From IMG/VR virus record IMGVR_UViG_3300032291_002085, positions 1 to 29,900 of that record: a stretch of 29,900 bases of DNA; one strand, given 5' to 3'. The notes under the pieces were generated by a model. The model was not told the origin of the DNA. It searched no databases and worked only from the letters and a program-made list of their open reading frames with translations. The first letter of the stretch is position 1. Each line of letters starts with the position of its first letter. Position numbers and translations under genes: made by a program. Positions 7,018 through 28,688 of this stretch are shown here, piece by piece. The stretch comes from a virus.

Positions 7018-7054
7018 TCACACTGTACTTTTTGTAAAGATAAGTACAGTGTGA
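7018..7054 (+). promoter_or_regulatory. 13-bp hairpin covering the start of the next gene
   Basis: TCACACTGTACTT (7018-7030) and AAGTACAGTGTGA (7042-7054) are perfect reverse complements around an 11-base loop. The 3' arm contains the GTG start at 7051. There is no following T-run, so an ordinary intrinsic terminator is unlikely. The hairpin could protect the 3' end of the fibre mRNA or block translation of the next gene on read-through transcripts. GATAAGTA at 7039-7046, in the loop and arm, resembles the late-promoter motif seen elsewhere in the window. Confidence 0.6.
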
Positions 7055-15638: not shown

Positions 15639-16199
15639 ATGCTAACGACCCCACATAAAATTTTCAGTCTGTTAATATTAATTATAGGTTTATTTTTTGT
15701 AACACCATTAAAACCTGTACATTCTGAACCAACACTTTATACTAACTTTGCAAAAGTTGATAAAAAACAACTTGCCTGTATGGCAAAGAATATATTCTAT
15801 GAAGCAGGTAGCGAGTCAATAAAAGGTCAAGCCGCTGTAGCTAGAGTAGTTATGAACAGAGTTAATCACGGATTTGCAAGCAATCCTTGTAATGTTGTTT
15901 ATCAAAAAATAACAGTTAATGATAAAACAATATGCCAGTTTAGCTGGGTATGTGAAGGTAAAGGTGAACCTAATAAAAATAGCCATAGATATAAAGTAGC
16001 TGAACAAGTTGCGTATGAAGTAATGGTTATGAATCAATACACAGATGTAGTTCCAAAATCTACATTATTCTTCCACTCAATTAATATTGATCCATTATGG
16101 CCGTACAAAAAAGTAGCAACAATCGGTGGACATGTTTTTTATGCTAAAACAAAAGTAAACACACAACCAAAACGTAAATCTAATGACCATATAGATTGA
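15639..16199 (+). CDS. SleB-type cell-wall hydrolase with signal peptide (probable endolysin)
   Basis: The 186-residue protein matches the Hydrolase_2/SleB family: LACMAKNIFYEAGSESIKGQ, then AAVARVVMNRV, a CNVVYQK segment and CQFSWVCEG. The YEA glutamate, E55, is the likely catalytic residue of this lytic transglycosylase or amidase fold. The N-terminus is Lys-containing, then strongly hydrophobic (FSLLILIIGLFFVTPL), with a plausible cleavage site after VHS (residue 29). Export by the host Sec system, or a signal-anchor form, is therefore likely. Probable role: peptidoglycan digestion at lysis. AAAGGAG gives a strong ribosome site. It sits at the end of the structural block. No holin is visible next to it. 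Confidence 0.88.
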   Translation: MLTTPHKIFSLLILIIGLFFVTPLKPVHSEPTLYTNFAKVDKKQLACMAKNIFYEAGSESIKGQAAVARVVMNRVNHGFASNPCNVVYQKITVNDKTICQFSWVCEGKGEPNKNSHRYKVAEQVAYEVMVMNQYTDVVPKSTLFFHSINIDPLWPYKKVATIGGHVFYAKTKVNTQPKRKSNDHID

Positions 16200-16225
16200 G
16201 TTAAATGGCACATTTATGATATACT
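16196..16225 (+). promoter_or_regulatory. Sigma70-like promoter placing its start at the next ATG
   Basis: TTGAGT (16196-16201) and TATACT (16220-16225) are spaced 18 bases. A start 7 bases after the -10 box falls at 16232, which is the A of the next gene's ATG. That gene has no Shine-Dalgarno sequence, in line with a leaderless transcript. Confidence 0.5.
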
Positions 16226-16231
16226 CACGAT

Positions 16232-16801
16232 ATGAATAATCCTGTAAATATAGCAAGGAGTCCAGAACGTAATACCTTTCAAAAAGAAGGTGCAATCCGT
16301 CGAGCAGAAGAAAAGGGCGAAGAGCCTAATCAAGCATACATTGATATGTGGGATCAGATTAAGATCGATGATGCTATTAAGATTCACGATCCTGAGTGGC
16401 AAAAAGATAATATGGAATATGATCTAAGGTCTACTCAATGGATAATTGACAAAGTAAAAAGTGATGATGTATATGCTCAACACTTATATGCCGCTATGTG
16501 CAACAATGAGTTTACTAAAAATGATATTATCCCTATATTAACCGAGAAGCGTTGGGGCTGTAGTTGGAGACATGCAGGCGGTGTTATTGCTGACATGAAA
16601 GAACAAGGCGATTATATTGACTGGTATTGTTCTGGAATTAGAAAAGATGATATTTCCGATCACGAATTTAAAGAACTAAATGTAGAAGAACAAGAATTAA
16701 TACTACAAACAAAAGCATATGTAAGTGAGAGTGTTGTCACCGATGAGATACGTGCAGACTTGTTAAAATTAGGTTGGTTAGTAATTGATGACACCGAATA
16801 A
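16232..16801 (+). CDS. Phage protein of unknown function
   Basis: The 189-residue soluble protein starts with an Arg/Glu-rich stretch (GAIRRAEEKGEEPNQAYIDMWDQ). A conserved-looking core follows (YAQHLYAAMCNNEFTKNDI, then KRWGCSWRHAGGVIADM and GDYIDWYCSG), which I associate with hypothetical proteins common in T4-type environmental phages. No catalytic motif is identified. No ribosome site precedes the ATG, and the next in-frame ATG is 116 bases on and would lose the charged N-terminus. The promoter-like sequence just before it suggests leaderless expression. The following gene overlaps its end by 14 bases. Confidence 0.65.
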   Translation: MNNPVNIARSPERNTFQKEGAIRRAEEKGEEPNQAYIDMWDQIKIDDAIKIHDPEWQKDNMEYDLRSTQWIIDKVKSDDVYAQHLYAAMCNNEFTKNDIIPILTEKRWGCSWRHAGGVIADMKEQGDYIDWYCSGIRKDDISDHEFKELNVEEQELILQTKAYVSESVVTDEIRADLLKLGWLVIDDTE

Positions 16802-17435
16802 AGATATAATTCCAGTCACTTATATGTCCGGTACCGGCGGTGCTTTTTTATCAAAATTTATTACTTTTGCAAAATTAAATTCAAAAGATATTTTGAAGTT
16901 AAGCAAACATGGAAATGCTCATAGTGGATATGTTGAATTACCGCGTTCTATTTTAGGACCACCTGATGATGACAATCTTAAAATTGAACAACTACTGAAT
17001 GCTAAGCCATACGATGATGTTTTTCCTATCTATTATGTTCCTACACATATTTTAGATTTAAAATTATGTATGAATTTTTTTGAAAAAACAATTCGCATAA
17101 CTTATGAAAAAGAGGATATAGATGATATAGCTATTTGCTATGTAGGAAAATATCACATAGATGCAACCCATAAAATTGATTCAACTATATTAAACTTAAA
17201 ATTACATTCACATATGTTGCTATTGAAATTTTGTAATCAATTTTCAACGATAGAACAAAATTCAAATATACTGTATGTTTCTTGGAAAGAATTACTATAT
17301 TATGATCCTAATATATTGATTAACAAGTTACATACTTTCACACAAATACCAATAGAAAACTTTAATCTTGAAAATTTATATAATTGGAGAAAAGCTACTA
17401 TTTCTTGCATAGAGAACATTTCTACAGCTAAATAG
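16788..17435 (+). CDS. Sulfotransferase-like / P-loop-like phage protein
   Basis: I take the ATG at 16788 (215 residues), which overlaps the previous gene by 14 bases; a TTG lies one codon earlier. Near the N-terminus, YMSGTGGAFLSKFI (12-25) is a glycine-rich nucleotide-binding turn like the 5'-phosphosulfate loop of sulfotransferase-fold proteins. The C-terminal part (ILYVSWKELLYYDP and NFNLENLYNWRKATI) resembles the end of small phage sulfotransferase-like proteins. If right, it would transfer a sulfuryl group from PAPS to an unknown acceptor. A different P-loop function cannot be excluded. The fold call is weak. Confidence 0.45.
   Translation: MTPNKDIIPVTYMSGTGGAFLSKFITFAKLNSKDILKLSKHGNAHSGYVELPRSILGPPDDDNLKIEQLLNAKPYDDVFPIYYVPTHILDLKLCMNFFEKTIRITYEKEDIDDIAICYVGKYHIDATHKIDSTILNLKLHSHMLLLKFCNQFSTIEQNSNILYVSWKELLYYDPNILINKLHTFTQIPIENFNLENLYNWRKATISCIENISTAK
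17428..17434 (+). promoter_or_regulatory. Late-promoter-like CTAAATA upstream of iscU
   Basis: CTAAATA matches the nTAAATA motif recurring before genes in this window, which resembles the T4 late consensus TATAAATA. It overlaps the previous stop codon and lies 20 bases before the iscU ATG, leaving room for the AGGAG ribosome site. Confidence 0.45.
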
Positions 17436-17454
17436 AATACAGGAGATACTTATT

Positions 17455-17835
17455 ATGGCTTATAGCGCACAAGTAATTGACCACTACGAAAACCCAAGAA
17501 ACGTTGGAAGTTTTGCAAAAGATGATGACGATGTTGGTACAAGTATGGTAGGCGCCCCGGCTTGCGGTGATGTAATGAAACTGCAAATAAAAGTAGATCC
17601 ATCAACAGGATTAATAACAGATGCCAAATTTAAGACATATGGGTGTGGGTCGGCAATTGCTTCTTCAAGCCTTGTCACAGAGTGGGTCAAGGGTAAAACA
17701 TTGGATGAGGCTGCAACCCTTAAAAACTCAACCATCGCCGAACACCTCTCCCTCCCCCCAGTTAAAATACACTGCTCTATCCTCGCAGAAGACGCTATCA
17801 AAGCCGCAGTAGAAGATTATAAAAAGAGGCATTGA
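17455..17835 (+). CDS. iscU: IscU-type iron-sulfur cluster scaffold
   Basis: The 126-residue protein is a full-length IscU. It has the three cluster cysteines C37 (APACGDV), C64 (YGCGSAIAS) and C107 (KIHCSIL), the regulatory aspartate D39 and the adjacent H106. Residues 100-104 spell LPPVK, the motif through which IscU is handed to the HscA chaperone. This separates it from SufU and NifU and implies use of a host Isc system. It would hold [2Fe-2S] clusters built by host IscS and pass them to apo-enzymes. Its stop overlaps the radical SAM start (TGATG), so that protein is the obvious client. Codons near 17700-17770 are unusually C-rich, hinting at a host origin. Confidence 0.93.
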   Translation: MAYSAQVIDHYENPRNVGSFAKDDDDVGTSMVGAPACGDVMKLQIKVDPSTGLITDAKFKTYGCGSAIASSSLVTEWVKGKTLDEAATLKNSTIAEHLSLPPVKIHCSILAEDAIKAAVEDYKKRH

Positions 17836-18926
17836 TGGAAAGAACATCAATAGAACCTTCGTTAGATCAAAAGCCTACGTTTTCTATTACTTGGGAAAGC
17901 ACAATGAAGTGCAATTTAGATTGTTCTTATTGTAGTTCACATGATAATTCTATTCCCCATCCTGATTTAGAAGATTGTTTAAAAACAGTTGATTTCTTTT
18001 TTGAATATACTAACTTGTATCTGTCAGTTAAGAACCAAAAACATAGTCATGTGAGTTTTAACATTTTTGGCGGAGAGAGTTTATTTCATCCAAATATTGT
18101 TGAAATAATAGAATACTCAAACAAGAGACATAAAGATTTAAACTATACCTGGTCTCTGAGTTTAAACACTGTTACTAACGCTTTAGTCAAGCAAAAAGTT
18201 TGGGAAAAATTAGTTGGCTATATTGATTTTTTCACAGTAAGTTATCACTCTGAAAGTTCAGCAGAAGACCAAAAATTAATAAGAGAGAATATATTATTTT
18301 TAAAAAAACAAAATAAAAATTTTCACTGTGCAGTTTTGATGCATCCTAAAAATTGGGATAACTGTGTTGCGATGGTTGAATGGTGTAAGGAAAATAATAT
18401 TCCGCATGTTGCTAGAAATCTTGACCATCATCCAAGTGATACTCGATTTTTATATGATACGGAACAAGTTAACTGGTTTAATAAAATTCGAGGAATATCT
18501 AAGCCTATTCAAATAGTAAAGAAAGATGAAAAAATAAATATAGGAGCGACGGGTAGAGGTTGTTGCGGCGGTCAAACTATGTCAATTAATCAAGACTATT
18601 CTTGTACTACTTCATTTATTTCTGATAATTCTTTTGTTGATTGGTCGTGCGGTGTTAATTATTTCTTTGTTTACGCAAGACAAACTACTAAAGAGGTATT
18701 CATTAACAAAGATTGTAAGATGAATTACGATGGAGAAGTTGGGCCTATAGGAACATTAGATAATACTGAATTAATTCTAAATGATTTAAAAGAAAGATTA
18801 AAACAACCTGTTGTAGCTATAACATGTAAAAAGAGTGCATGTTGGTGTGGACTTTGTACACCAAAAGCTAGCACTAAAACAACATTTGATACTATAATGA
18901 AGAAATATCTTAAGGAAGTAGTATGA
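17835..18926 (+). CDS. Radical SAM enzyme, substrate unknown
   Basis: I take the ATG at 17835, overlapping the iscU stop by one base (363 residues). The radical SAM cluster motif CNLDCSYC is at C26, C30 and C33, and the SAM-binding GGE follows in IFGGESLF. Extra cysteines lie in the C-terminal half: CC in RGCCGGQ, single cysteines near SYSCTTS, WSCGV and KDCKM, and a terminal CKKSACWCGLC. This suggests auxiliary Fe-S clusters as in SPASM/twitch enzymes. Such proteins modify peptides, RNA or small molecules by radical chemistry; the target cannot be told. Coupling to iscU suggests co-supply of its clusters. Confidence 0.88.
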   Translation: MERTSIEPSLDQKPTFSITWESTMKCNLDCSYCSSHDNSIPHPDLEDCLKTVDFFFEYTNLYLSVKNQKHSHVSFNIFGGESLFHPNIVEIIEYSNKRHKDLNYTWSLSLNTVTNALVKQKVWEKLVGYIDFFTVSYHSESSAEDQKLIRENILFLKKQNKNFHCAVLMHPKNWDNCVAMVEWCKENNIPHVARNLDHHPSDTRFLYDTEQVNWFNKIRGISKPIQIVKKDEKINIGATGRGCCGGQTMSINQDYSCTTSFISDNSFVDWSCGVNYFFVYARQTTKEVFINKDCKMNYDGEVGPIGTLDNTELILNDLKERLKQPVVAITCKKSACWCGLCTPKASTKTTFDTIMKKYLKEVV

Positions 18927-20887: not shown

Positions 20888-20895
20888 GATAAATA
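20888..20895 (+). promoter_or_regulatory. Late-promoter-like GATAAATA
   Basis: GATAAATA fits the NATAAATA pattern and lies 24 bases before the ATG at 20920, in the gap after the AhpD-like gene. An ATAGGA ribosome site lies in between. Confidence 0.5.
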
Positions 20896-21426: not shown

Positions 21427-22368
21427 TCATTTAAATCTATTATTAGTACCTGGCTCACCGCCCAAGATTTTTGCGAATCTTGGGCCCCATTTTATCGAAC
21501 TTACCGTCTCACCATATTCTTTTTCTAATTTATCCATTTCTTTTTTGATATCCCATATAGCCCTAACTTGTTCCCATCCAAATGCTCTTGGCCTAGGCTC
21601 TGCATTAGTGTTACCTAATAAATGATGTATACCTTGTTTGAGTCGAATAACTCCTAATTCATCAAGTTTGTTTTCAGGATGGCTACGCATATAATCGATA
21701 TGTGCTTTAGTCACCAATGCGTTTAGCTCAAAACTACGATTCTGCATACTACCAATACCGTGTATATTATTCTCAGTTAAAAATCTATCGTATTGCGTGA
21801 ATAAATGACGGGTTGGACTAATTATAGCAGTTGACCCTGTGCCCGACCAAGGCCATGTATACTCACCTCCTATTACAGGGAACCCGGTGCATTGTTCAAA
21901 CAACCAAAAATGAGTTGCAATATGTGCAGTAAATATTTTATACTTATCCAAATATGGTCTATGCAATCCGTTCTCAAAGAAACTCACAGCATCCAAATCA
22001 ATTATAATTTGTTTTACACTATGTCTTCTACAGTACTCACCGCTATGATACAAATCATGTGTGTTTAATGTTATGCCGTAACCTTTTAAACGTAATGTTA
22101 CAGCCTCAACTGGTATTTTATTTTTTAAACAAGCATGTAGTGTCAATTCACTGTCAAGTCCGCCACTGAACAAAACTTGTACTGTCTTTGTTTGTCTTAC
22201 TGCTAATAAATCATTGTATACTTCATATATACTACGATTTTCTTGTATGGGTATACCTTCTTCCAATATTTCTATTTCATACGTATGTTTGTTTGTTTCG
22301 TCATCTGTTATGAATGTATTTTTAAGATAATTGTCTTGACCACTATACCAAATATTTGTTTCTATCAT
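21427..22368 (-). CDS. PP-loop ATPase (N-type ATP pyrophosphatase; asparagine-synthase-like)
   Basis: The 313-residue protein carries the PP-loop QVLFSGGLDSELTLH (SGGLDS at 68-73), which binds ATP and adenylates a substrate. Families with this loop include the synthetase domain of asparagine synthase, QueC, TilS and thiouridylases. The C-terminal zinc cysteines expected of QueC are not seen. IGGEYTWPW and RPRAFGWEQVRAIWDIK mark the later part. Probable role: ATP-dependent amidation or thiolation of an unknown substrate. It overlaps the upstream methyltransferase-like gene by ATGA, so the two form a minus-strand operon. A 10-bp inverted repeat lies inside its 3' end. Confidence 0.7.
   Translation of the reverse strand: MIETNIWYSGQDNYLKNTFITDDETNKHTYEIEILEEGIPIQENRSIYEVYNDLLAVRQTKTVQVLFSGGLDSELTLHACLKNKIPVEAVTLRLKGYGITLNTHDLYHSGEYCRRHSVKQIIIDLDAVSFFENGLHRPYLDKYKIFTAHIATHFWLFEQCTGFPVIGGEYTWPWSGTGSTAIISPTRHLFTQYDRFLTENNIHGIGSMQNRSFELNALVTKAHIDYMRSHPENKLDELGVIRLKQGIHHLLGNTNAEPRPRAFGWEQVRAIWDIKKEMDKLEKEYGETVSSIKWGPRFAKILGGEPGTNNRFK
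21460..21485. terminator. 10-bp inverted repeat at the convergent gene junction
   Basis: GCCCAAGATT (21460-21469) and AATCTTGGGC (21476-21485) pair perfectly around TTTGCG. It lies ~35 bases past the plus-strand stop and inside the coding end of the minus-strand gene. There is no strong T-run, so it may slow or stop both converging transcripts or just stabilise 3' ends. Confidence 0.4.
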
Positions 22369-22916
22369 TTTTTACCTATTAACATGAATCTATTGTAACC
22401 TTTACCATTTTCATATTGTATAGGTAAAGTGCCACAGAACAATACATCATCTAATGGATATTTTTCAATGAAGGATTCTAAAGATGGTGTATATTGTTTG
22501 ATATCCCATGTATCACCGTCATTTTTCATATCACTAGACTGGATACATACTAACGTTCCTTTGACTATGTTGTTAAGCCAGTCTATAGAGTCCATATGTT
22601 CAGGGCTACAGTTGATAATTACATCAGGTCCTGCTAAGTTGTATGTGTTTGCGTCCCCCACAACGTTACTTAATTTTTTTTCTATAATCCAGGTAACACC
22701 TAGCTTGTCAGCAACGCTCACTGCCTCAGCATCAATGTCTATGCCCAAAATAGATTGATATTGATTACGTTTTCGTGCTAACATCATTAAACCTAGTAAG
22801 TTGTACCAACTACCTAGTATGAACACTGTAGACTTCTCAGGGAGATATGGTTCAAGTTGTTCGCAAAGCCATAGCTTGCTAATAATCTGTCCGTGACTGA
22901 AAGAATCAAAATTCAT
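22365..22916 (-). CDS. Class I methyltransferase-like (Rossmann) protein
   Basis: The 183-residue protein shows a Rossmann layout: strand VFILGSWYN (31-39) in the place of motif I, LGIDID (57-62) as the acidic strand end that would hold the SAM ribose, GDAN at 87-90, and DVIINCSPEHMDSIDWL from 98 as the motif IV region. The motif I loop is not the usual GxGxG, so SAM binding is probable but not certain. It is followed by the PP-loop ATPase with an ATGA overlap, suggesting two steps of one modification pathway. No ribosome site is seen. CTAAATA lies 6 bases before the ATG on this strand, implying a very short leader. Confidence 0.6.
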   Translation of the reverse strand: MNFDSFSHGQIISKLWLCEQLEPYLPEKSTVFILGSWYNLLGLMMLARKRNQYQSILGIDIDAEAVSVADKLGVTWIIEKKLSNVVGDANTYNLAGPDVIINCSPEHMDSIDWLNNIVKGTLVCIQSSDMKNDGDTWDIKQYTPSLESFIEKYPLDDVLFCGTLPIQYENGKGYNRFMLIGKK

Positions 22917-22922
22917 ACTTTT

Positions 22923-22929
22923 TATTTAG
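22923..22929 (-). promoter_or_regulatory. Late-promoter-like CTAAATA 6 bases from the methyltransferase ATG
   Basis: Read on the minus strand, CTAAATA ends 6 bases before the ATG at 22916. If it works like a T4 late -10 box, transcription would begin at or next to the start codon. No Shine-Dalgarno sequence is present. Confidence 0.5.
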
Positions 22930-22996
22930 TGGGTAAAACTTATGATAAGTAAAAAGAGTAAGTTGTGTGTTTTGGGTAACAAGTTTAAAAAAGTTG

Positions 22997-23025
22997 TTGA
23001 CAATCAATTGAACCTGTCATATACT
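22997..23025 (+). promoter_or_regulatory. Consensus sigma70 promoter TTGACA-N17-TATACT
   Basis: TTGACA is at 22997-23002 and TATACT at 23020-23025 with a 17-base spacer, close to ideal for the host vegetative polymerase. It points into the small RNA and tRNA region. The same pair with the same spacing recurs at 28566 and 29114. Confidence 0.8.
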
Positions 23026-23064
23026 ACACACATCGAAACAAAAAGTGAAAAAAACACTATTAAA

Positions 23065-23093
23065 TTGACAGAATTTTTAACCAGGACTAAATA
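23065..23093 (+). promoter_or_regulatory. Second tandem promoter TTGACA-N17-TAAATA
   Basis: TTGACA (23065-23070) is followed after 17 bases by TAAATA (23088-23093). The latter is also part of a CTAAATA late-type motif at 23087. The predicted start is about 23100, at the beginning of the structured RNA. One box may serve both early and late transcription. Confidence 0.6.
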
Positions 23094-23100
23094 AAAGACT

Positions 23101-23311
23101 ATGATGAACTTAACTTGTAATCTGATGAAACAAAGAGCATGGCATGCCTTAGCCATAGCTTCCTTTGTCCCATCATATCCTACAAGTGCATTTAGTATTC
23201 GCGGTAATGATGCCCAAACAGAGGGAGCAAGCCCGGGGACTAGGTAAAGTCTAATCATAGATTGAATTTTATCTAAAACCCCTGGGAACTTAAAAAGTCT
23301 CAGGGGTTTTT
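23101..23311 (+). ncRNA. Candidate small structured RNA with its own promoters and terminator
   Basis: Between two tandem promoters and an intrinsic terminator lies a ~210-base unit. Its 5' half folds into one long hairpin at 23123-23175: TGATG/CATCA, ACAAAG/CTTTGT, AGC/GCT and ATGGC/GCCAT, 19 pairs with small internal loops and an 8-base end loop. The 3' half has short helices (GGG AGCAA GCCC near 23223) and the terminator. A 48-codon ORF (23101-23247, MMNLTCNLMKQRAWHALAIA...) coincides with it. It has no ribosome site and cuts across the paired region, so I favour a small RNA. A leaderless small protein is the alternative. T4 also encodes stable non-tRNA RNAs beside its tRNA cluster. Confidence 0.55.
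23275..23311 (+). terminator. Intrinsic terminator
   Basis: AAAACCCCTG (23275-23284) pairs with CAGGGGTTTT (23301-23310), with an inner ACTT/AAGT helix. The U-run ends at 23311. This is the clearest rho-independent terminator in the window and closes the small RNA unit. Confidence 0.85.
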
Positions 23312-23332
23312 GTTTATGGAGAAAAAACAACA

Positions 23333-23509
23333 ATGAAAGCTGACAATGATTTGAAAAGTAAGTTAGAATCGGCATCTTGTGATAAAACGAATTGGTTTAA
23401 AAATCATTCGTTATCAGAAGATGAACGAAAAAAGTTGATTGATGAAAAAGTAAAACGTTTCATTAATCAAGTAGAGTTTAGTAGAAAAACCGTAAAGGTT
23501 ATTAACTAA
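23333..23509 (+). CDS. Small charged protein of unknown function
   Basis: The 58-residue ORF starts 21 bases after the terminator. GGAG lies about 13 bases before the ATG, slightly far. The product is highly charged (MKADNDLKSKLESA, then SEDERKKLIDEKVKRFINQ) and mostly helical, with codon use like neighbouring genes. No family is recognised. It could be a small host-takeover or regulatory protein; the sequence does not show which. Confidence 0.5.
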   Translation: MKADNDLKSKLESASCDKTNWFKNHSLSEDERKKLIDEKVKRFINQVEFSRKTVKVIN

Positions 23510-23514
23510 ACTCA

Positions 23515-23740
23515 AGTGTTGATAGGCAACGAGGGCCGGTAAGCATCACTATAAAAATGCCACAAACGGGCGGACAGTATACATGAAAGCATGGCGATAA
23601 CATGTTAGTAAGACTACTGGTTAGGGTATCGACCCTAACATAGCGTAAGAAATTACGCTATTCTATAAGACATTGAAGAACAACGCCCTATCCCCCTGAC
23701 GGCATAGACAAGCATTTAGTGTTTTATAGAATAGCGTTTT
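23515..23740 (+). ncRNA. Structured RNA with two mutually exclusive stems, directly upstream of the tRNA array
   Basis: No ORF is credible here and helices are dense. TTAGGGT/ACCCTAA (23621-23627, 23632-23638) closes a 4-base loop. TAGCGTAA/TTACGCTA (23641-23648, 23653-23660) closes a GAAA tetraloop. A longer 14-bp stem pairs ACGCTATTCTATAA (23655-23668) with TTATAGAATAGCGT (23724-23737). The last two share ACGCTA and cannot form together. The long stem ends three bases before tRNA-Gln, followed by TTTT, so it may act as a processing stem or attenuator. No known RNA family is recognised. Confidence 0.5.
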
Positions 23741-23742
23741 GT

Positions 23743-23816
23743 TGGCGTGTAGTGTAATGGTAACACCACAGACTTTGACTCTGTTATTCTAGGTTCGAGC
23801 CCTAGCACGCCTGCCA
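23743..23816 (+). tRNA. tRNA-Gln(UUG)
   Basis: The full cloverleaf is readable, with anticodon loop CTTTGAC, T-loop TTCGAGC, discriminator G and encoded CCA. Position 1/72 is a U-U mismatch; a weak first pair is tolerated and even favoured by glutaminyl-tRNA synthetase. It is the first gene of the array. Confidence 0.92.
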
Positions 23817-23823
23817 AATTTAT

Positions 23824-23898
23824 ATCCTGTTAGTTTATCGGTAAGAACGATGGCCTTTCAAGTCGTAGAGACGGGTTCGACTCCCGTACAGGATGCCA
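23824..23898 (+). tRNA. tRNA-Glu(UUC), first copy
   Basis: Acceptor ATCCTGT pairs fully with ACAGGAT. The anticodon loop CTTTCAA gives UUC, and the T-loop is TTCGACT. Discriminator G and CCA are encoded. A second tRNA-Glu lies at 29454 with a different body, so this is not a simple local duplication. Confidence 0.92.
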
Positions 23899-23903
23899 GT
23901 TTT

Positions 23904-23959
23904 AGGATCGGTTCAGCAATTAAAAAAACTTTTATTGTCAAAAAGCAAAAAACGATCCT
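23904..23959 (+). repeat. Inverted repeat in the spacer between tRNA-Glu and tRNA-Arg
   Basis: AGGATCG (23904-23910) and CGATCCT (23953-23959) enclose an A/T-rich 42-base loop. The loop contains TCAGCAAT, also found in the next large spacer hairpin (24122-24200). It may be a processing structure or the remnant of a tRNA-like gene. Confidence 0.4.
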
Positions 23960-23968
23960 GTTTTATAT

Positions 23969-24045
23969 GCGACCGTAACTCAGTTGGATAGAGTACTAGG
24001 CTACGAACTTAGGAGTCGGGAGTTCGAATCTCTCCGGTCGCACCA
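23969..24045 (+). tRNA. tRNA-Arg(ACG)
   Basis: Acceptor GCGACCG pairs with CGGTCGC, and the anticodon loop CTACGAA gives ACG. D- and T-arms are regular and ACCA is encoded. A34 would need deamination to inosine by host TadA to read all CGN codons it serves. Confidence 0.95.
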
Positions 24046-24049
24046 TCAT

Positions 24050-24124
24050 GCTGATGTAACACAGTGGTAGTGTACTTTCTTGGTAAGAAAGAGGTCGTGG
24101 GTTCAAATCCCGCCATCAGCACCA
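24050..24124 (+). tRNA. tRNA-Thr(GGU)
   Basis: Acceptor GCTGATG pairs with CATCAGC. The anticodon stem is CTTTC/GAAAG with loop TTGGTAA, and ACCA is encoded. Its CCA is also the first part of the long inverted repeat 24122-24200. Confidence 0.95.
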
Positions 24125-24200
24125 TATAAAAACACATTATACGAACCCGAATCAGCAATGGCATTGCAGAGGTTTAATTGTGTAATGTGTTTCTATATGG
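24122..24200 (+). repeat. Two-part inverted repeat joining tRNA-Thr and tRNA-Met
   Basis: CCATATA (24122-24128) pairs with TATATGG (24194-24200), and ACACATTA (24132-24139) with TAATGTGT (24183-24190). This is 15 pairs separated by a 3x3 internal loop. The outer arms lie in the tRNA-Thr CCA and the first two bases of tRNA-Met. Inner AACC/GGTT and GCAA/TTGC helices add structure. It could be a stem recognised during precursor processing. Confidence 0.6.
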
Positions 24201-24274
24201 TTGAGTAGCATAGTGGCTAATGCACCACCTTCATACGGTGTTTATCGTCGGTTCGAGTCCGACCTCAACTACCA
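24199..24274 (+). tRNA. tRNA with CAU anticodon (elongator Met or Ile2)
   Basis: The anticodon loop TTCATAC gives CAU. The D-stem is GCAT/ATGC and ACCA is encoded. The first acceptor pair is G-U and the outer anticodon pair is C-U. It is not an obvious initiator (no GGG/CCC anticodon stem). Whether the host modifies C34 to lysidine, making it Ile2 as in T4, cannot be told from sequence alone. Confidence 0.88.
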
Positions 24275-24279
24275 ATTAG

Positions 24280-24371
24280 ACTTTTTAGGTGTGACTATGT
24301 TGTAATGGTAGCAACCTAGACTGTGACTCTGGTAGTACGGGTTCAAATCCCGTTAGTCACCCCTAAAAAGT
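24280..24371 (+). repeat. 10-bp inverted repeat flanking tRNA-His
   Basis: ACTTTTTAGG (24280-24289) and CCTAAAAAGT (24362-24371) are perfect reverse complements placed on either side of the tRNA acceptor stem. The precursor acceptor helix could therefore extend to about 17 pairs. Confidence 0.75.
24291..24361 (+). tRNA. tRNA-His(GUG), CCA not encoded
   Basis: Acceptor GTGACTA pairs perfectly with TAGTCAC. The anticodon loop CTGTGAC gives GUG, and C73 follows. Unlike the other readable tRNAs here, the next bases are CCT, not CCA. The base at -1 is T, not the genome-encoded G that histidyl-tRNA synthetase normally requires. D- and T-arms are intact, so it may still be functional after CCA addition. 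Confidence 0.85.
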
Positions 24372-24375
24372 TTAT

Positions 24376-24451
24376 GGCACAATAGCTCCAATGGTAGAGC
24401 AGTGGACTGAAAATTCATGTGTTGCTGGTTCGAGTCCAGCTTGTGCTACCA
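24376..24451 (+). tRNA. tRNA-Phe(GAA)
   Basis: Acceptor GGCACAA pairs with TTGTGCT (G-U at the first pair). The anticodon loop CTGAAAA gives GAA, the T-loop is TTCGAGT, and ACCA is encoded. Confidence 0.93.
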
Positions 24452-24459
24452 ATCAATAT

Positions 24460-24534
24460 GCCTCCTTAGCTCAGTGGTAGAGCAATCGCTTGATAAGCGA
24501 TAGGCCGATGGATCGTTCCCATCAGGAGGCACCA
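24460..24534 (+). tRNA. tRNA-Ile(GAU) with unusual T-loop
   Basis: Acceptor GCCTCCT pairs with AGGAGGC. The anticodon stem ATCGC/GCGAT holds loop TTGATAA, and ACCA is encoded. The T-loop reads ATCGTTC where TTCGANC is expected, so the T54-A58 pair is replaced by A and T. Everything else is canonical. Confidence 0.9.
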
Positions 24535-24542
24535 AGAATTAT

Positions 24543-24620
24543 TCCGTGAGAGCAAGCAAGGTGTGGGCGTCTGACTGTTAATCAGAAATGAGCCAGGTTC
24601 GATCCCTGATCACGGAGCCA
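24543..24620 (+). tRNA. tRNA-Asn(GUU), first copy
   Basis: Acceptor TCCGTGA pairs with TCACGGA, and the anticodon stem TCTGA/TCAGA holds CTGTTAA. Discriminator G and CCA are encoded. The D-arm is poorly paired and slightly long, and one T-stem pair is C-A, so this copy looks weaker than the second tRNA-Asn at 28696. Confidence 0.85.
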
Positions 24621-24628
24621 AGTTAAAT

Positions 24629-24703
24629 GGTCTTGTCATATAGTGGTTATTATACCGGCCTGTCTAGTCGGATATCGGGGTTCGATTCCCCGCAGGATCG
24701 CCA
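24629..24703 (+). tRNA. tRNA-Asp(GUC), first copy
   Basis: The anticodon stem CCGGC/GTCGG holds loop CTGTCTA. The T-arm CGGGG/CCCCG is perfect, and discriminator G and CCA are encoded. The acceptor has two G-U pairs. The last A of CCA begins the inverted repeat of the following structured spacer. Confidence 0.93.
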
Positions 24704-24856
24704 AGTTTTGAGATAGACGTAGAGATTGAGTCCCTTATACGCTAGTGCCCTATTCTTGAGCATGACACACCAGTAGCAGTATGAGGTTGTTAAACTCTCT
24801 TATACGAGACAAGCTGGTGAGTCCTCCCTGGAGGATAGTCAGTCTCTCAAAAACTT
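24703..24856 (+). ncRNA. Structured spacer RNA between tRNA-Asp and tRNA-Ala
   Basis: A closing stem pairs AAGTTTTGAGA (24703-24713) with TCTCAAAAACTT (24845-24856), with one bulged base. Inside are CACCAG/CTGGTG (24768-24773, 24814-24819), GTATGAG/CTTATAC (24779-24785, 24799-24805) and TCCTC/GAGGA around a CCTG loop (24822-24835). There is no credible ORF. The layout looks like a folded stable RNA that starts exactly at one tRNA end and stops 6 bases before the next. No known family is recognised. Confidence 0.55.
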
Positions 24857-24862
24857 ATTCAT

Positions 24863-24937
24863 GGGCTGTTAGTGATAATGGGAGCACGGGGGCTTTGCAC
24901 GTCCTAGGTAAGAGTTCGATTCTCTTACGGTCCACCA
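24863..24937 (+). tRNA. tRNA-Ala(UGC)
   Basis: Anticodon stem GGGGC/GTCCT holds loop TTTGCAC, giving UGC. The acceptor GGGCTGT/ACGGTCC includes two G-U pairs, one of them at the third position as alanyl-tRNA synthetase requires. ACCA is encoded. Confidence 0.9.
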
Positions 24938-24942
24938 AACAT

Positions 24943-25034
24943 GGAAAGTAATGCAGCGGGGATGGTCCTGCGACTGGCCTTGAAAACCAGGTTCTCTTAA
25001 CAGGGATGGGGTTCGACTCCTCTGCTTTCCGCCA
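24943..25034 (+). tRNA. tRNA-Ser(UGA)
   Basis: The 92-base class II tRNA has acceptor GGAAAGT/GCTTTCC, anticodon loop CTTGAAA giving UGA, and a long variable region as serine tRNAs need. Discriminator G and CCA are encoded. The anticodon stem has one C-A pair next to the loop. Confidence 0.9.
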
Positions 25035-25048
25035 AACAAGGAGTGATT

Positions 25049-25414
25049 ATGTTAAAACAATTTAACATTGATGAAAGTTATATTTGTGATGTTAGAGTCA
25101 GAACCGAAACATCTTTAATCAAAGATCCCAACAACCCTACGTATGATGACATTATCAAAATCCTAAAAGGACATGATAAAATGATAAACATCAGTAACAA
25201 AGACCATGATGAGTTTACAAAGTTACGTAACCTCTTAGAAGAACAAGGCTACATCAAAACCGATCGTGGGTGTTGGAATGGTGACAGAGTATTAAAAGGG
25301 TTCAAACTAAATGAATTCACTCTAAAAAAAGGTAATAAGTTTCTTTGTGCTACTGCAATGCAAGGAGCAATTGGTTTTGCTAGAAAGTACAATAGAACGA
25401 CTATAGGAATTTAA
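25049..25414 (+). CDS. Unknown small protein between tRNA genes
   Basis: I choose the ATG at 25049 because AAGGAG ends 5 bases before it; a GTG two codons upstream falls inside the ribosome site. The 121-residue basic protein begins MLKQFNIDESYICDVRVR, has a helical middle (TKLRNLLEEQGYIKTDRGCW) and ends in AMQGAIGFARKYNRTTIGI. The middle could be a winged-helix-like segment, but this is weak. The stop is immediately followed by tRNA-Pro, so mRNA and tRNA are co-transcribed and separated by processing. Confidence 0.6.
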   Translation: MLKQFNIDESYICDVRVRTETSLIKDPNNPTYDDIIKILKGHDKMINISNKDHDEFTKLRNLLEEQGYIKTDRGCWNGDRVLKGFKLNEFTLKKGNKFLCATAMQGAIGFARKYNRTTIGI

Positions 25415-25492
25415 CTGGGTATATTGTCAACTTGGTAGACGGCCGGGCTTGGAACTCGGAGGCTGGAGGTTCAAATCCTCCTACCCAGACCA
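25415..25492 (+). tRNA. tRNA-Pro(UGG)
   Basis: Acceptor CTGGGTA pairs with TACCCAG. Anticodon stem CCGGG/CTCGG holds CTTGGAA, giving UGG. The T-arm is perfect and ACCA is encoded. The gene begins at the base after the preceding stop codon. Confidence 0.95.
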
Positions 25493-25517
25493 AAATTAGT
25501 TAACATAACTATTTAAA

Positions 25518-25524
25518 CTAAATA
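25518..25524 (+). promoter_or_regulatory. Late-promoter-like CTAAATA
   Basis: CTAAATA lies 18 bases before the ATG at 25543, with an AAGAGG ribosome site in between. It follows tRNA-Pro and would restart late transcription here. Confidence 0.45.
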
Positions 25525-25542
25525 AATGTTTAAGAGGTTGTT

Positions 25543-25812
25543 ATGTTACCGTTACAGAAAGCTATTCATATTAGGTTTAAGGAAAAGGTTCCTTTTTGTG
25601 CTCCACATGAAATGATTCAATTACTAAATGAAAAATGTGAAGAATTTTTTTATAAAGATAAAACAGACCTTGATTTAACTTTTATAGACGAATACACAAC
25701 ACAACGTCTTTTTGTGGACCAAGAGTCAGTTGAAGAATGGGCCGAGATTATGAAAACTGAAGCGGCTAAAAATAATGTTGAAATAGCAGAAATTAAAATT
25801 TTTGATATTTAA
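25543..25812 (+). CDS. Unknown small acidic protein
   Basis: The 89-residue protein begins MLPLQKAIHIRFKEKVPFC. Acidic helices follow (EMIQLLNEKCEEFFYKD, then ESVEEWAEIMKTEAAKN), and it ends in a predicted strand (IAEIKIFDI). It has a late-type promoter motif and ribosome site upstream. The next gene starts one base after its stop. No family is recognised. Confidence 0.55.
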   Translation: MLPLQKAIHIRFKEKVPFCAPHEMIQLLNEKCEEFFYKDKTDLDLTFIDEYTTQRLFVDQESVEEWAEIMKTEAAKNNVEIAEIKIFDI

Positions 25813-25813
25813 T

Positions 25814-26593
25814 ATGAGTACTTTAAAAGATCCAGAACAATCATTTGAAGAAATGATGGCACGTAACAGAATGTCGCAACTACATCAGTCTGCGTATTCA
25901 TTCTGGCGTGATAGCAATTATGCGTATCACGAATACTATGATAGATTCAAAAGATTTTCTAGGTGGTTTGACCCTTCTTGGTCGCTTCCACCTCACGTTC
26001 AAGCAGTTAGTGATTTATACAGCAAATACTTTATAAGTCATAAGATAATTCCAACAGATTATGGGCAGGGTGTGCAAATGCATTTGAATCCTAGTAATGT
26101 ACCAGAAAACCCAAAAAATTGGCAACGTTGGAAATCGTGGTCCTATACCGCATGTATTCCATTCTCACTTGAAGATTTAGATAAATGGGATCCGATTCCA
26201 TTAAGATATACTCAGTATTATAATCTTTCTGAGTTAGATTATAATCCTTGTTCATACGATGAATCAAAATTTAGTACAATGTATTGTCGTCCATTTGAAC
26301 GAATGTCATTTGCTTCATCACACATTGCACATGAAGTATTACCGGCAAACAACAGATGTTTTTGGATATTGCATGATTTAACATTTGAAGATGGTGTACT
26401 TCCACACACTAATATCAGATCAGATGTGGTTGAAAATCTTGCTGATATGCAAAAAGATATTTTAGAAATTATTAGTACTAAAAAAGAAGACGGCACTCCG
26501 TATTTCAAACGTCAGTTCATGTCTGACCTAGATTATTTCTTATCATTTAATAAACCAGTCAATGACTTTGATTGGATGCCACCAAACTTATAA
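25814..26593 (+). CDS. Unknown aromatic-rich phage protein
   Basis: I take the ATG at 25814, one base after the previous stop, giving 259 residues. The protein is rich in Trp, Tyr and Phe (SAYSFWRDSNYAYHEYYDRF, RFSRWFDPSWSLPPH, NWQRWKSWSYTACIPF). It has several His and Asp residues (SSHIAHEVLPANNRCFWILHD) but no motif I can assign. It ends in FDWMPPNL. No ribosome site is obvious, so expression may depend on coupling to the preceding gene. tRNA-Leu begins one base after the stop. Confidence 0.55.
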   Translation: MSTLKDPEQSFEEMMARNRMSQLHQSAYSFWRDSNYAYHEYYDRFKRFSRWFDPSWSLPPHVQAVSDLYSKYFISHKIIPTDYGQGVQMHLNPSNVPENPKNWQRWKSWSYTACIPFSLEDLDKWDPIPLRYTQYYNLSELDYNPCSYDESKFSTMYCRPFERMSFASSHIAHEVLPANNRCFWILHDLTFEDGVLPHTNIRSDVVENLADMQKDILEIISTKKEDGTPYFKRQFMSDLDYFLSFNKPVNDFDWMPPNL

Positions 26594-26594
26594 T

Positions 26595-26672
26595 GCCCTG
26601 CTGGACAAATTGGTAAAGTCATCTCTCTCAAAAGGAGAAGTTCTCCCCGTTCGAATCGGGGGCAGGGTACCA
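26595..26672 (+). tRNA. tRNA-Leu(CAA) with a short, class I-type variable loop
   Basis: Acceptor GCCCTGC pairs with GCAGGGT. Anticodon stem TCTCT/GGAGA holds CTCAAAA, giving CAA for UUG codons. The T-arm CCCCG/CGGGG is perfect, and A73 plus CCA is encoded. Bacterial leucine tRNAs normally have a long variable arm; here only about six bases fill that place. Identity is set from the anticodon alone. Confidence 0.82.
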
Positions 26673-27266
26673 TTATAATTTTTCTATAATTAAATGTTTA
26701 TGTTTTTCAATGAATTCAGGCTCTCTGATATTTTGAAAACAGATAGAATATAATATTCTATGATTTACTATATTATGGACACTATGATAGTTTTGCGGGC
26801 AAAATTGATACCATGATTCATCATTGAATTGATATTCACCTAATAAATCAAATTGTTCATCTTTATTACTCATTAGTCCGTTAGTTTTATAATCACTTTC
26901 TTGTTTATATATTCTAGTACGCACATCTGGTCCTCCTATTTGAATACAACGATTGATAGAAATAGTTCGTCCTCCCCCGTCAAAATGAGGGGGATAATTA
27001 GCAATAGTGTTTGGCTTGATGTTTATTAAATTCACAAAAATACCAAAAATTTTATCTTTAAAATATTGTTGGTATGTTTTTTCAGTATATTCTTGTATTT
27101 TTTCGTTATGAAAATATGCACATTTAGCAACATTAATCATATGATTATCCGAATAGTGTAATGCTCTTGTATTAAACATTGGATCTTCTGGAAAAGAGTT
27201 GCAATAGTCTAAGATTTCTGATATAATAGACATATCAGGTTGGGGCAAGTTAAATTTATACGGCAT
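26673..27266 (-). CDS. Putative 2OG-Fe(II) oxygenase
   Basis: The 197-residue protein shows the iron-binding H-x-D at H94/D96 (YPPHFDGGGRT). A distal histidine (H161 or H164 in NYHSVHNIV) and R170 (VNHRILYSICF) would bind 2-oxoglutarate, as in the double-stranded beta-helix oxygenases. The substrate is unknown; phage members can hydroxylate proteins, nucleic acids or small molecules. Its stop abuts the 3' end of tRNA-Leu on the other strand. CATAAATA lies 4 bases before the ATG and no ribosome site is seen, so the mRNA may be leaderless. A second such enzyme lies just downstream on the plus strand. Confidence 0.65.
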   Translation of the reverse strand: MPYKFNLPQPDMSIISEILDYCNSFPEDPMFNTRALHYSDNHMINVAKCAYFHNEKIQEYTEKTYQQYFKDKIFGIFVNLINIKPNTIANYPPHFDGGGRTISINRCIQIGGPDVRTRIYKQESDYKTNGLMSNKDEQFDLLGEYQFNDESWYQFCPQNYHSVHNIVNHRILYSICFQNIREPEFIEKHKHLIIEKL

Positions 27267-27270
27267 CAGA

Positions 27271-27278
27271 TATTTATG
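27271..27278 (-). promoter_or_regulatory. Late-promoter-like CATAAATA just before the oxygenase start
   Basis: On the minus strand CATAAATA ends 4 bases before the ATG at 27266. It also lies one base from the 5' end of the plus-strand tRNA-Arg, so a single short gap carries both signals. Confidence 0.5.
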
Positions 27279-27279
27279 C

Positions 27280-27354
27280 GGGTCATTAATTCAGTGGAAG
27301 AATTCTGGTCTTCGAAACCAGCAGTCAGAGGTTCGAATCCTCTATGACCCTCCA
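27280..27354 (+). tRNA. tRNA-Arg(UCG)
   Basis: Acceptor GGGTCAT pairs with ATGACCC. Anticodon stem CTGGT/ACCAG holds CTTCGAA, giving UCG. The discriminator is T, unlike the other arginine tRNAs here (A), and CCA is encoded. It is flanked by a minus-strand gene and a plus-strand gene. Confidence 0.92.
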
Positions 27355-27362
27355 AACATATA

Positions 27363-27369
27363 CTAAATA
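27363..27369 (+). promoter_or_regulatory. Late-promoter-like CTAAATA 5 bases from the next ATG
   Basis: CTAAATA ends 5 bases before the ATG at 27375. With T4 late spacing the transcript would start at the A of the ATG. No Shine-Dalgarno sequence is present. Confidence 0.5.
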
Positions 27370-27374
27370 AAGTC

Positions 27375-27962
27375 ATGCAAGACGAATTTTCAAATATACT
27401 ATGGATGCCAATCGACATTCCAAAATGTCCGATTCAGCCTACTGTTAATGATGGTTTTCATTGGGCATGGTGGGAAGTAAATAAACTGACTCAACAACGA
27501 GAAAATCCATATGATGAAAGTGATTGGACAGACGAGACTAGGGAAAAATATCCTGAGTTCGTAGATTGGTTTAAACAGTTACCTTACAAAACAATACGAA
27601 ACGTAAAGGTCAATCGACAAACAAGATTTGTTGATCCACATATTGATTTTTACAAACCAGAACTTCATCCTACATTACACACTAATAATAAAGAAAACGA
27701 ACCGTGTGGTTATAGGATACTAATTAAAGGTAGTAGAGACAAGGGTATTTTCATTATGCGTGGTGAAGAAAAAATTTACTGCAATATGCCTGATGCTACT
27801 GATACTTATGTTTTAGGTCATACCTCAACTAAGCACGGTGTAGAAAATGATGAACAAAGAATTACAATCTTTACTCATTTTGAAATTGATGCAGAAAAAA
27901 ATAGAGCCTTATTGCAAAAAAGTTTTGCAAAATATGGATCATACGCAATTTTTAACAAATAG
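27375..27962 (+). CDS. Putative 2OG-Fe(II) oxygenase (aspartyl/asparaginyl hydroxylase-like)
   Basis: The 195-residue protein has the H-x-D iron pair H89/D91 in FVDPHIDFYKPE. The distal H154 lies in TSTKHGVEND and the 2OG-binding R162 in DEQRITIFTHFEID. The order and spacing resemble Asp/Asn beta-hydroxylase-type enzymes. The N-terminal third is Trp-rich (ILWMPIDIP, FHWAWWEVN). The target is unknown. The gene starts without a ribosome site and with CTAAATA 5 bases upstream, so leaderless translation is likely. It is not closely similar to the other oxygenase on the minus strand, so it is not a recent duplicate. Confidence 0.7.
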   Translation: MQDEFSNILWMPIDIPKCPIQPTVNDGFHWAWWEVNKLTQQRENPYDESDWTDETREKYPEFVDWFKQLPYKTIRNVKVNRQTRFVDPHIDFYKPELHPTLHTNNKENEPCGYRILIKGSRDKGIFIMRGEEKIYCNMPDATDTYVLGHTSTKHGVENDEQRITIFTHFEIDAEKNRALLQKSFAKYGSYAIFNK

Positions 27963-28550: not shown

Positions 28551-28565
28551 ATATTATAGGAAGAC

Positions 28566-28594
28566 TTGACAAAAAAGTTTTCCTATGATATACT
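28566..28594 (+). promoter_or_regulatory. Consensus sigma70 promoter TTGACA-N17-TATACT before tRNA-Thr
   Basis: TTGACA (28566-28571) and TATACT (28589-28594) are separated by 17 bases. The predicted start near 28601 is 12 bases before tRNA-Thr(UGU). It marks an independently started tRNA transcript. Confidence 0.8.
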
Positions 28595-28612
28595 TTTGTT
28601 AAATAAACACAT

Positions 28613-28688
28613 GCCCTTTTAGCTCATTAGGTAGAGCAACTGTTTTGTAAGCAGTAGGTGGTCAGTTCGAATCCGACAAAGGGCACCA
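28613..28688 (+). tRNA. tRNA-Thr(UGU)
   Basis: Acceptor GCCCTTT pairs with AAAGGGC. Anticodon stem ACTGT/GCAGT holds TTTGTAA, giving UGU for ACA codons, which are common in these genes. The T-stem has one A-C mismatch. ACCA is encoded. Confidence 0.93.

Follow-up and report, generated by a model that had tools for sequence, protein, structure and literature searches.

Viruses of an uncultured clade, represented here by a window of 29.9 kb (the whole stretch of DNA analysed), very probably produce leaderless mRNAs, with leaders of 0–3 nt, from both sigma70-type and T4-type late promoters, and do so beside mRNAs that carry a leader and a Shine-Dalgarno (SD) sequence. The earlier observation that several late-type boxes in this window end only a few bases before an ATG holds good and extends further than the note claimed; as an architecture of the sequence it has good support.

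Three genes of the window have a late-type box 4–6 nt before the ATG, and a fourth box, absent from the earlier note, precedes a small ORF. The boxes and ORFs, all read from the sequence, are as follows (gap, number of nucleotides between box and ATG).

22923–22929, minus strand: late-type promoter box CTAAATA (CTAAATA AAAAGT ATG, gap 6)
22365–22916, minus strand: Rossmann/methyltransferase-like gene of 183 aa, for which a leaderless start is inferred; ORF with N-terminus conserved in 15 relatives
27271–27278, minus strand: late-type promoter box CATAAATA (CATAAATA TCTG ATG, gap 4)
26673–27266, minus strand: gene of 197 aa without a family match, for which a leaderless start is inferred; ORF without SD
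27363–27369, plus strand: late-type promoter box CTAAATA (CTAAATA AAGTC ATG, gap 5)
27375–27962, plus strand: gene of 195 aa without a family match, for which a leaderless start is inferred; ORF without SD
23087–23093, plus strand: late-type box CTAAATA, 7 nt before ATG 23101
23101–23247, plus strand: small ORF, 48 aa, conserved at the protein level in 7 clade contigs

The spacings of 6, 4 and 5 bases claimed for CTAAATA or CATAAATA before the ATGs of 22916 (−), 27266 (−) and 27375 (+) are exact on re-reading of the sequence, and the claimed absence of an SD at all three starts is confirmed. When the expectation is calculated from about 34 genes and the window's own TAAATA frequency, three TAAATA placements at gaps of 4–7 are seen where 0.05–0.13 are expected (Poisson P = 2e-5 to 3e-4). 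TAAATA itself is not over-represented in the window (31 copies against 56 expected by shuffling), so that the signal lies in placement and not in abundance. The gene at 22365–22916, the Rossmann matches of which are weak, is the first gene of a two-gene operon with 21427–22368 as the second. No homologues of the proteins encoded at 27375, 26673 and 20920 are found in viral contigs.

The distance from TAAATA to the start codon has been counted over 96 related viral contigs (1.62 Mb, 2228 ORFs, 705 gene families), in which genes are called by simple rules and some starts may be wrong. With candidate start ATGs of the 705 families, gaps of 0–8 are represented by 1, 1, 2, 3, 19, 30, 8, 9 and 3 families, gaps of 9–15 by 0–2 families each, and gaps of 16–21 by 8, 7, 13, 8, 6 and 9 families. 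The distribution is bimodal, with a sharp peak at 4–7 (mainly 4–5), where the background is about 2 families per distance as against the 19, 30, 8 and 9 observed, and a broad peak over 16–24. Control hexamers other than promoter words are flat and produce no peak. A strict count confined to the first ATG of ORFs no shorter than 100 aa (403 families) gives 17, 21, 7 and 8 families at gaps 4–7 for TAAATA compared with 2, 0, 0 and 1 for its reverse complement TATTTA, and the short class amounts to about 50 of the 403 families (13%). In the clade records, the raw pattern TAAATAN{4,6}ATG likewise outnumbers its reversed control several times over. Lack of a distance peak at 4–7 had been named as the outcome that would refute the original proposal; the peak is present in the related contigs, and only at starts without an SD. 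Chance, by which AT-rich intergenic DNA would yield TAAATA near ATGs, has a negligible share in this pattern. AT-rich words near ATGs are indeed expected in a window of 63% AT, yet TAAATA stays below the shuffled expectation; the family-level histogram, with its peak against flat controls, already refutes such an origin, and the peak is absent in T4 and PA5oct, which are more AT-rich.

The broad peak has three representatives in the window.

17428–17434, plus strand: CTAAATA, 20 nt before the iscU ATG 17455, with AGGAG between
20890–20895, plus strand: TAAATA, 24 nt before ATG 20920, with AGGA between
25519–25524, plus strand: TAAATA, 18 nt before ATG 25543, with GAGG between

These genes had been described as a contrasting set with the motif 18–24 bases upstream and a ribosome site between, and their gaps of 20, 24 and 18, each with an SD, bear this out. 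Over the families, an SD is found in 2.3% of the gap 4–7 class and in 78% of the gap 16–24 class, compared with 10.6% at random ATGs, and the contrast between the short and long classes is significant (Fisher P = 1e-18). The earlier suggestion of two deliberate classes of late gene therefore stands as regards the two classes, one at 4–7 without SD and one at 16–24 with SD, but not as regards their restriction to late genes, because sigma70 promoters share the short placement.

In the family histogram, TATAAT shows a spike at gap 6 before the ATG, and −35 words appear at gap 30. Sigma70 promoters with spacers of 16–18 bp are found in 18 families at gap 6 and in 2 families each at gaps 5 and 7. 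No member of this short-gap class has an SD (0%), compared with 70% for sigma70 promoters at gaps 16–30. The sole positioned −35 words (TTGAC, gap 30) match the spacing of the TATAAT class, although the TAAATA class is not separated in this count. Because sigma70 promoters are placed alike, the short placement is not solely a late-gene device; because both classes are seen for sigma70 and for late boxes, each promoter type would exist in a leaderless and in a leader-plus-SD form. Two looser cases from the window bear on the promoter type.

16196–16225, plus strand: sigma70-type promoter TTGAGT-18-TATACT, 6 nt before ATG 16232 (read from the sequence)
16232–16801, plus strand: gene with inferred leaderless start from the sigma70-type promoter, 189 aa
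7019–7053, no strand assigned: perfect 12-bp inverted repeat with arms at 7019–7030 and 7042–7053, containing GATAAGTA and the GTG at 7051; outside the promoter class

At 16232 the short placement is upheld, with TATACT at gap 6 and TTGAGT..TATACT retained at gap 6 before the homologous gene of contig G001. Its promoter is not of the late type, however, and is reassigned to sigma70 on account of the TTGAGT −35 box at 18 bp from TATACT. The GTG at 7051 is rejected as a member of the short class, since GATAAGTA sits in a hairpin arm and GTG is practically never used in this class. The inverted repeat itself lies between the tail-fibre gene and 7051, and its 3' arm includes the GTG used as start.

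The start codons of the short class have features of their own. At gaps of 4–7, 66 family matches are obtained with ATG and 1 with GTG and TTG taken together, the numbers of candidate codons being similar. A at position −1 is avoided, being found in 5 of 58 short-class families compared with 231 of 579 over all families (P = 5e-7), as would be expected if transcription starts on the A of the ATG after a pyrimidine. In the late-type box, the TAAATA core is positioned in dozens of families, and the first two bases of the TATAAATA-like 8-bp box are variable. AT-rich leaders that lack an SD are known to bind S1. TAAATA before the ATG might accordingly be a translation element, namely an unstructured, S1-binding leader within longer transcripts, and no promoter at all; 6 of 57 short-class boxes overlap an upstream gene on the same strand, and in 6 the TAA stop codon of the upstream gene forms part of the box, as this would allow. 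However, 44 of the 57 boxes are intergenic, other AT-rich hexamers are flat, and the same placement is shared by sigma70 promoters with a −35 box and 16–18 bp spacing, which is a signal at the DNA level. A translation element alone would predict neither the avoidance of A at −1 nor the use of AUG only, and it is an improbable account of the short class. It is likewise hardly credible that the start codons are mis-called, such that the true starts lie downstream with an SD and the transcripts have short leaders. Annotators of the Xanthomonas jumbo phage XacN1 did place one start, that of ORF 163334, about 24 codons downstream, at 163262. However, an in-frame start with an SD within the next 40 codons is found in 6 of 58 short-class genes compared with 47 of 302 SD genes, the N-termini of the 22365 family are conserved from the called ATG, the annotations of isolates share the same ATG at most sites checked, and an irrelevant ATG would not be expected to keep a fixed distance from the box. 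The reading of the short-gap boxes as promoters of leaderless mRNAs is preferred to either explanation.

The short placement is conserved among homologues. Relatives of the 22365–22916 protein are encoded at 15 loci with 49–89% identity and have the N-terminus conserved from the called ATG, and their upstream DNA differs between groups. TAAATA ends 4–6 nt before the ATG at 13 of these loci and is absent at 2; the 13 loci and the window together represent five upstream contexts, two of which are interrelated. Over the whole set, homologues of short-class genes in different upstream DNA belong to the short class in 17 of 55 contexts, to the SD class in 12 and to neither in 26, compared with a short class in 3 of 285 contexts for homologues of SD genes. 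Judged from these sequence comparisons, the short arrangement is inherited yet exchangeable. Homologues often switch class, which, like the absence of the arrangement from T4, Syn9 and PA5oct, counts against the leaderless reading.

The T4 late box is usually numbered −13 to −6. Its distance upstream of the transcription start is about one turn of the helix (PMC2988020). With this geometry, a gap of 5 would put +1 on the A of the ATG and gaps of 4–7 would put it within about 3 nt, and a sigma70 −10 box at gap 6 would likewise place +1 at the ATG. In the proposed mechanism, two promoter types, the late box TATAAATA/NTAAATA and consensus sigma70, would each be used in two arrangements. In the long arrangement, a promoter 16–30 nt upstream would produce an mRNA with a leader, the translation of which is started by the SD. 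In the short arrangement, in which the box ends 4–7 nt (late) or 6 nt (sigma70) before the ATG, RNA polymerase would start on, or about 3 nt from, the A of the AUG. Such a leaderless mRNA would have no room for an SD, and the ribosome would take the message through its 5'-terminal AUG, a route which, going by the references listed in PMC4631060, is known in E. coli. Both the exact transcription start and the leaderless route of translation are inferred, no RNA 5' ends being available for the clade. The form of polymerase acting at the late boxes, presumably one with a gp55-type sigma, is also inferred. Searches of the clade contigs, all of which are fragments, with a single gp55 sequence, a PHROG profile and a profile built on about 85 gp55 sequences give no convincing gp55, and a gp45 profile search of the same contigs finds none. 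The boxes are thus called late because of their resemblance to the T4 late box. A gp55 homologue is present in XacN1, Mosig EXVC030M (a Pelagibacter phage), Syn9, T4 and PA5oct.

Among isolates, TAAATAN{4,6}ATG exceeds its reversed control in XacN1 (20 versus 4) and marginally in Mosig EXVC030M (24 versus 18), and shows no excess in T4, PA5oct, Atu_ph07, Phosso, GAP32, Syn9 and SCTP-2. Gene-start histograms give 8 and 5 cases for TAAATA at gaps 5–6 and 4 and 4 for TATAAT at gaps 6–7 in XacN1, and 6 cases at gap 5 with zero at the neighbouring gaps in Mosig EXVC030M; those of T4, the cyanophage Syn9 and PA5oct lack a peak at short gaps. Gap-5 genes include those with ATGs at 126974, 128288 and 158321 in XacN1 and at 60328, 60990, 92996, 94129 and 106670 in Mosig. 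In XacN1 the peak is not as clean as in the clade, since an SD is scored in 3 of its 15 short-gap cases. Among the sites checked, the short-gap ATG is also the annotated CDS start at eight (Mosig, five; XacN1, three), and at one XacN1 ORF the two differ. This ORF (AP018399, 162627–163334) has a gap-5 ATG without SD at 163334, about 24 codons upstream of the annotated start 163262, which is possibly misplaced. Around gp55 genes in IMG/VR, 80 loci show a small peak at gaps 5 and 6 (9 and 4) beside a dominant mode at 16–28.

The clade resembles T4-type late promoters in a TATAAATA-like box, with variable first two bases, at about one turn from the inferred start, and in the occurrence of this box 16–28 nt before SD genes as well, but placement 4–7 nt from the ATG is almost unused in T4 and Syn9. 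XacN1 and Mosig EXVC030M resemble the clade in their short-gap TAAATA peak, mostly without SD, and both encode a gp55 homologue; however, they have fewer short-gap genes. Leaderless mRNAs are known from bacteria and phages, for example lambda cI and the leaderless genes of actinobacteria. Likenesses to these are the inferred 5'-terminal AUG, the lack of an SD, strict AUG use and a promoter box at a fixed distance from the ATG. The differences are that in this T4-superfamily clade a sizeable share of families is involved while its other genes often have an SD, and that two promoter types are used, one of them phage-late. Leaderless T4-type late genes are a combination of two known kinds that is unreported in searchable papers; no report is found in the searchable literature, reviews included (subscription papers lay outside the search), and the text of the XacN1 paper does not contain the short-gap trait.

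The window is a fragment of an uncultured virus with 20 tRNA genes, NrdA and one phrog_527 protein. Contigs with relatives of the latter include G022 (142.9 kb), which encodes T4-type TerL, UvsX, a gp44-like clamp loader, a DnaB-like helicase and a gp32-like protein and has PHROG matches to phrog_36964, phrog_97, phrog_168 and phrog_19 (T4-type TerL, UvsX, gp44 clamp loader, DnaB-type helicase). Judged by TerL and UvsX, the isolates closest to G022 are the jumbo myoviruses PA5oct, Phosso, Atu_ph07, GAP32 and CBB. The clade is placed in the jumbo branch of the T4 superfamily on these marker genes, which are seen in the relative G022 and not in the window's own contig. The window peroxiredoxin (19300) is closest to Burkholderiales, with the exception of one probable phage fragment in a MAG, and hints weakly at a host among the betaproteobacteria. 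The exception is a 5.9-kb contig in a Bacteroidota MAG (L302), the peroxiredoxin of which is 86% identical to that of the window; this contig is probably a piece of phage DNA that was binned with the MAG. A radical SAM protein at 17832–18926, adjoining iscU, has weak similarity to viperin and peptide maturases.

A gene for ribosomal protein bS21 is present in 11 of 22 clade contigs besides the window (G022, G008, G010, G014, G007, G009, G006 and G017–G020), the four largest included, and also in Mosig and PA5oct. For Bacteroidetes phages, a link between phage-encoded bS21 and late-stage translation has been described (PMC9723584). As a determinant of the short class it is rejected, since PA5oct encodes bS21 but lacks the trait and XacN1 shows the trait with no bS21 detected. 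Because of this mismatch, a causal tie between bS21 and leaderless starts is no more than a hypothesis. It is conceivable, but rather unlikely, that this T4-superfamily lineage runs a two-channel translation programme, in which the same promoters fire SD-led or leaderless mRNAs and a set of genes bypasses SD recognition and could be favoured once initiation changes late in infection, possibly through the phage bS21.

Among Gram-negative bacteria and the phages that infect them, leaderless mRNAs are usually regarded as rarities. A clade with dozens of inferred leaderless genes beside SD genes under the same promoters would offer a natural comparison of both initiation routes within each infection. 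If this reading is true, genes with the short placement are expressed in a second way, besides the customary SD-led one, a proposal that has sequence statistics as its basis. Start predictors that expect an SD can misplace short-class starts, as the XacN1 annotation may have done. Because XacN1 and Mosig EXVC030M are cultured, the leaderless prediction is directly testable.

The small ORF at 23101 (window 23087–23312, plus strand) has 43–56 aa across 7 clade contigs, with the pattern M.N..C..LKH.GLWS...TPSIRG..NDEG.PGSF. Upstream of it, ACCAGGACTAAATA (AATAAATA in G005) N7-8 ATG is retained in the 7 contigs, so that a TAAATA box always lies 7–8 nt from the ATG; a strong terminator follows downstream. 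The ORF diverges fast although its flanks are nearly identical, and its RNA fold has z = −4.9. It has no family match, a search for additional relatives returned only itself, and an Rfam search of 22917–23740 gives no match over threshold. It is possibly a small modified peptide or a leader peptide. At window positions 28564–28613, TTGACA-17-TATACT is directly followed by TTAAATA ending 7 nt before tRNA-Thr 28613, and sigma70-type and late-type boxes thus adjoin at the head of this tRNA gene.
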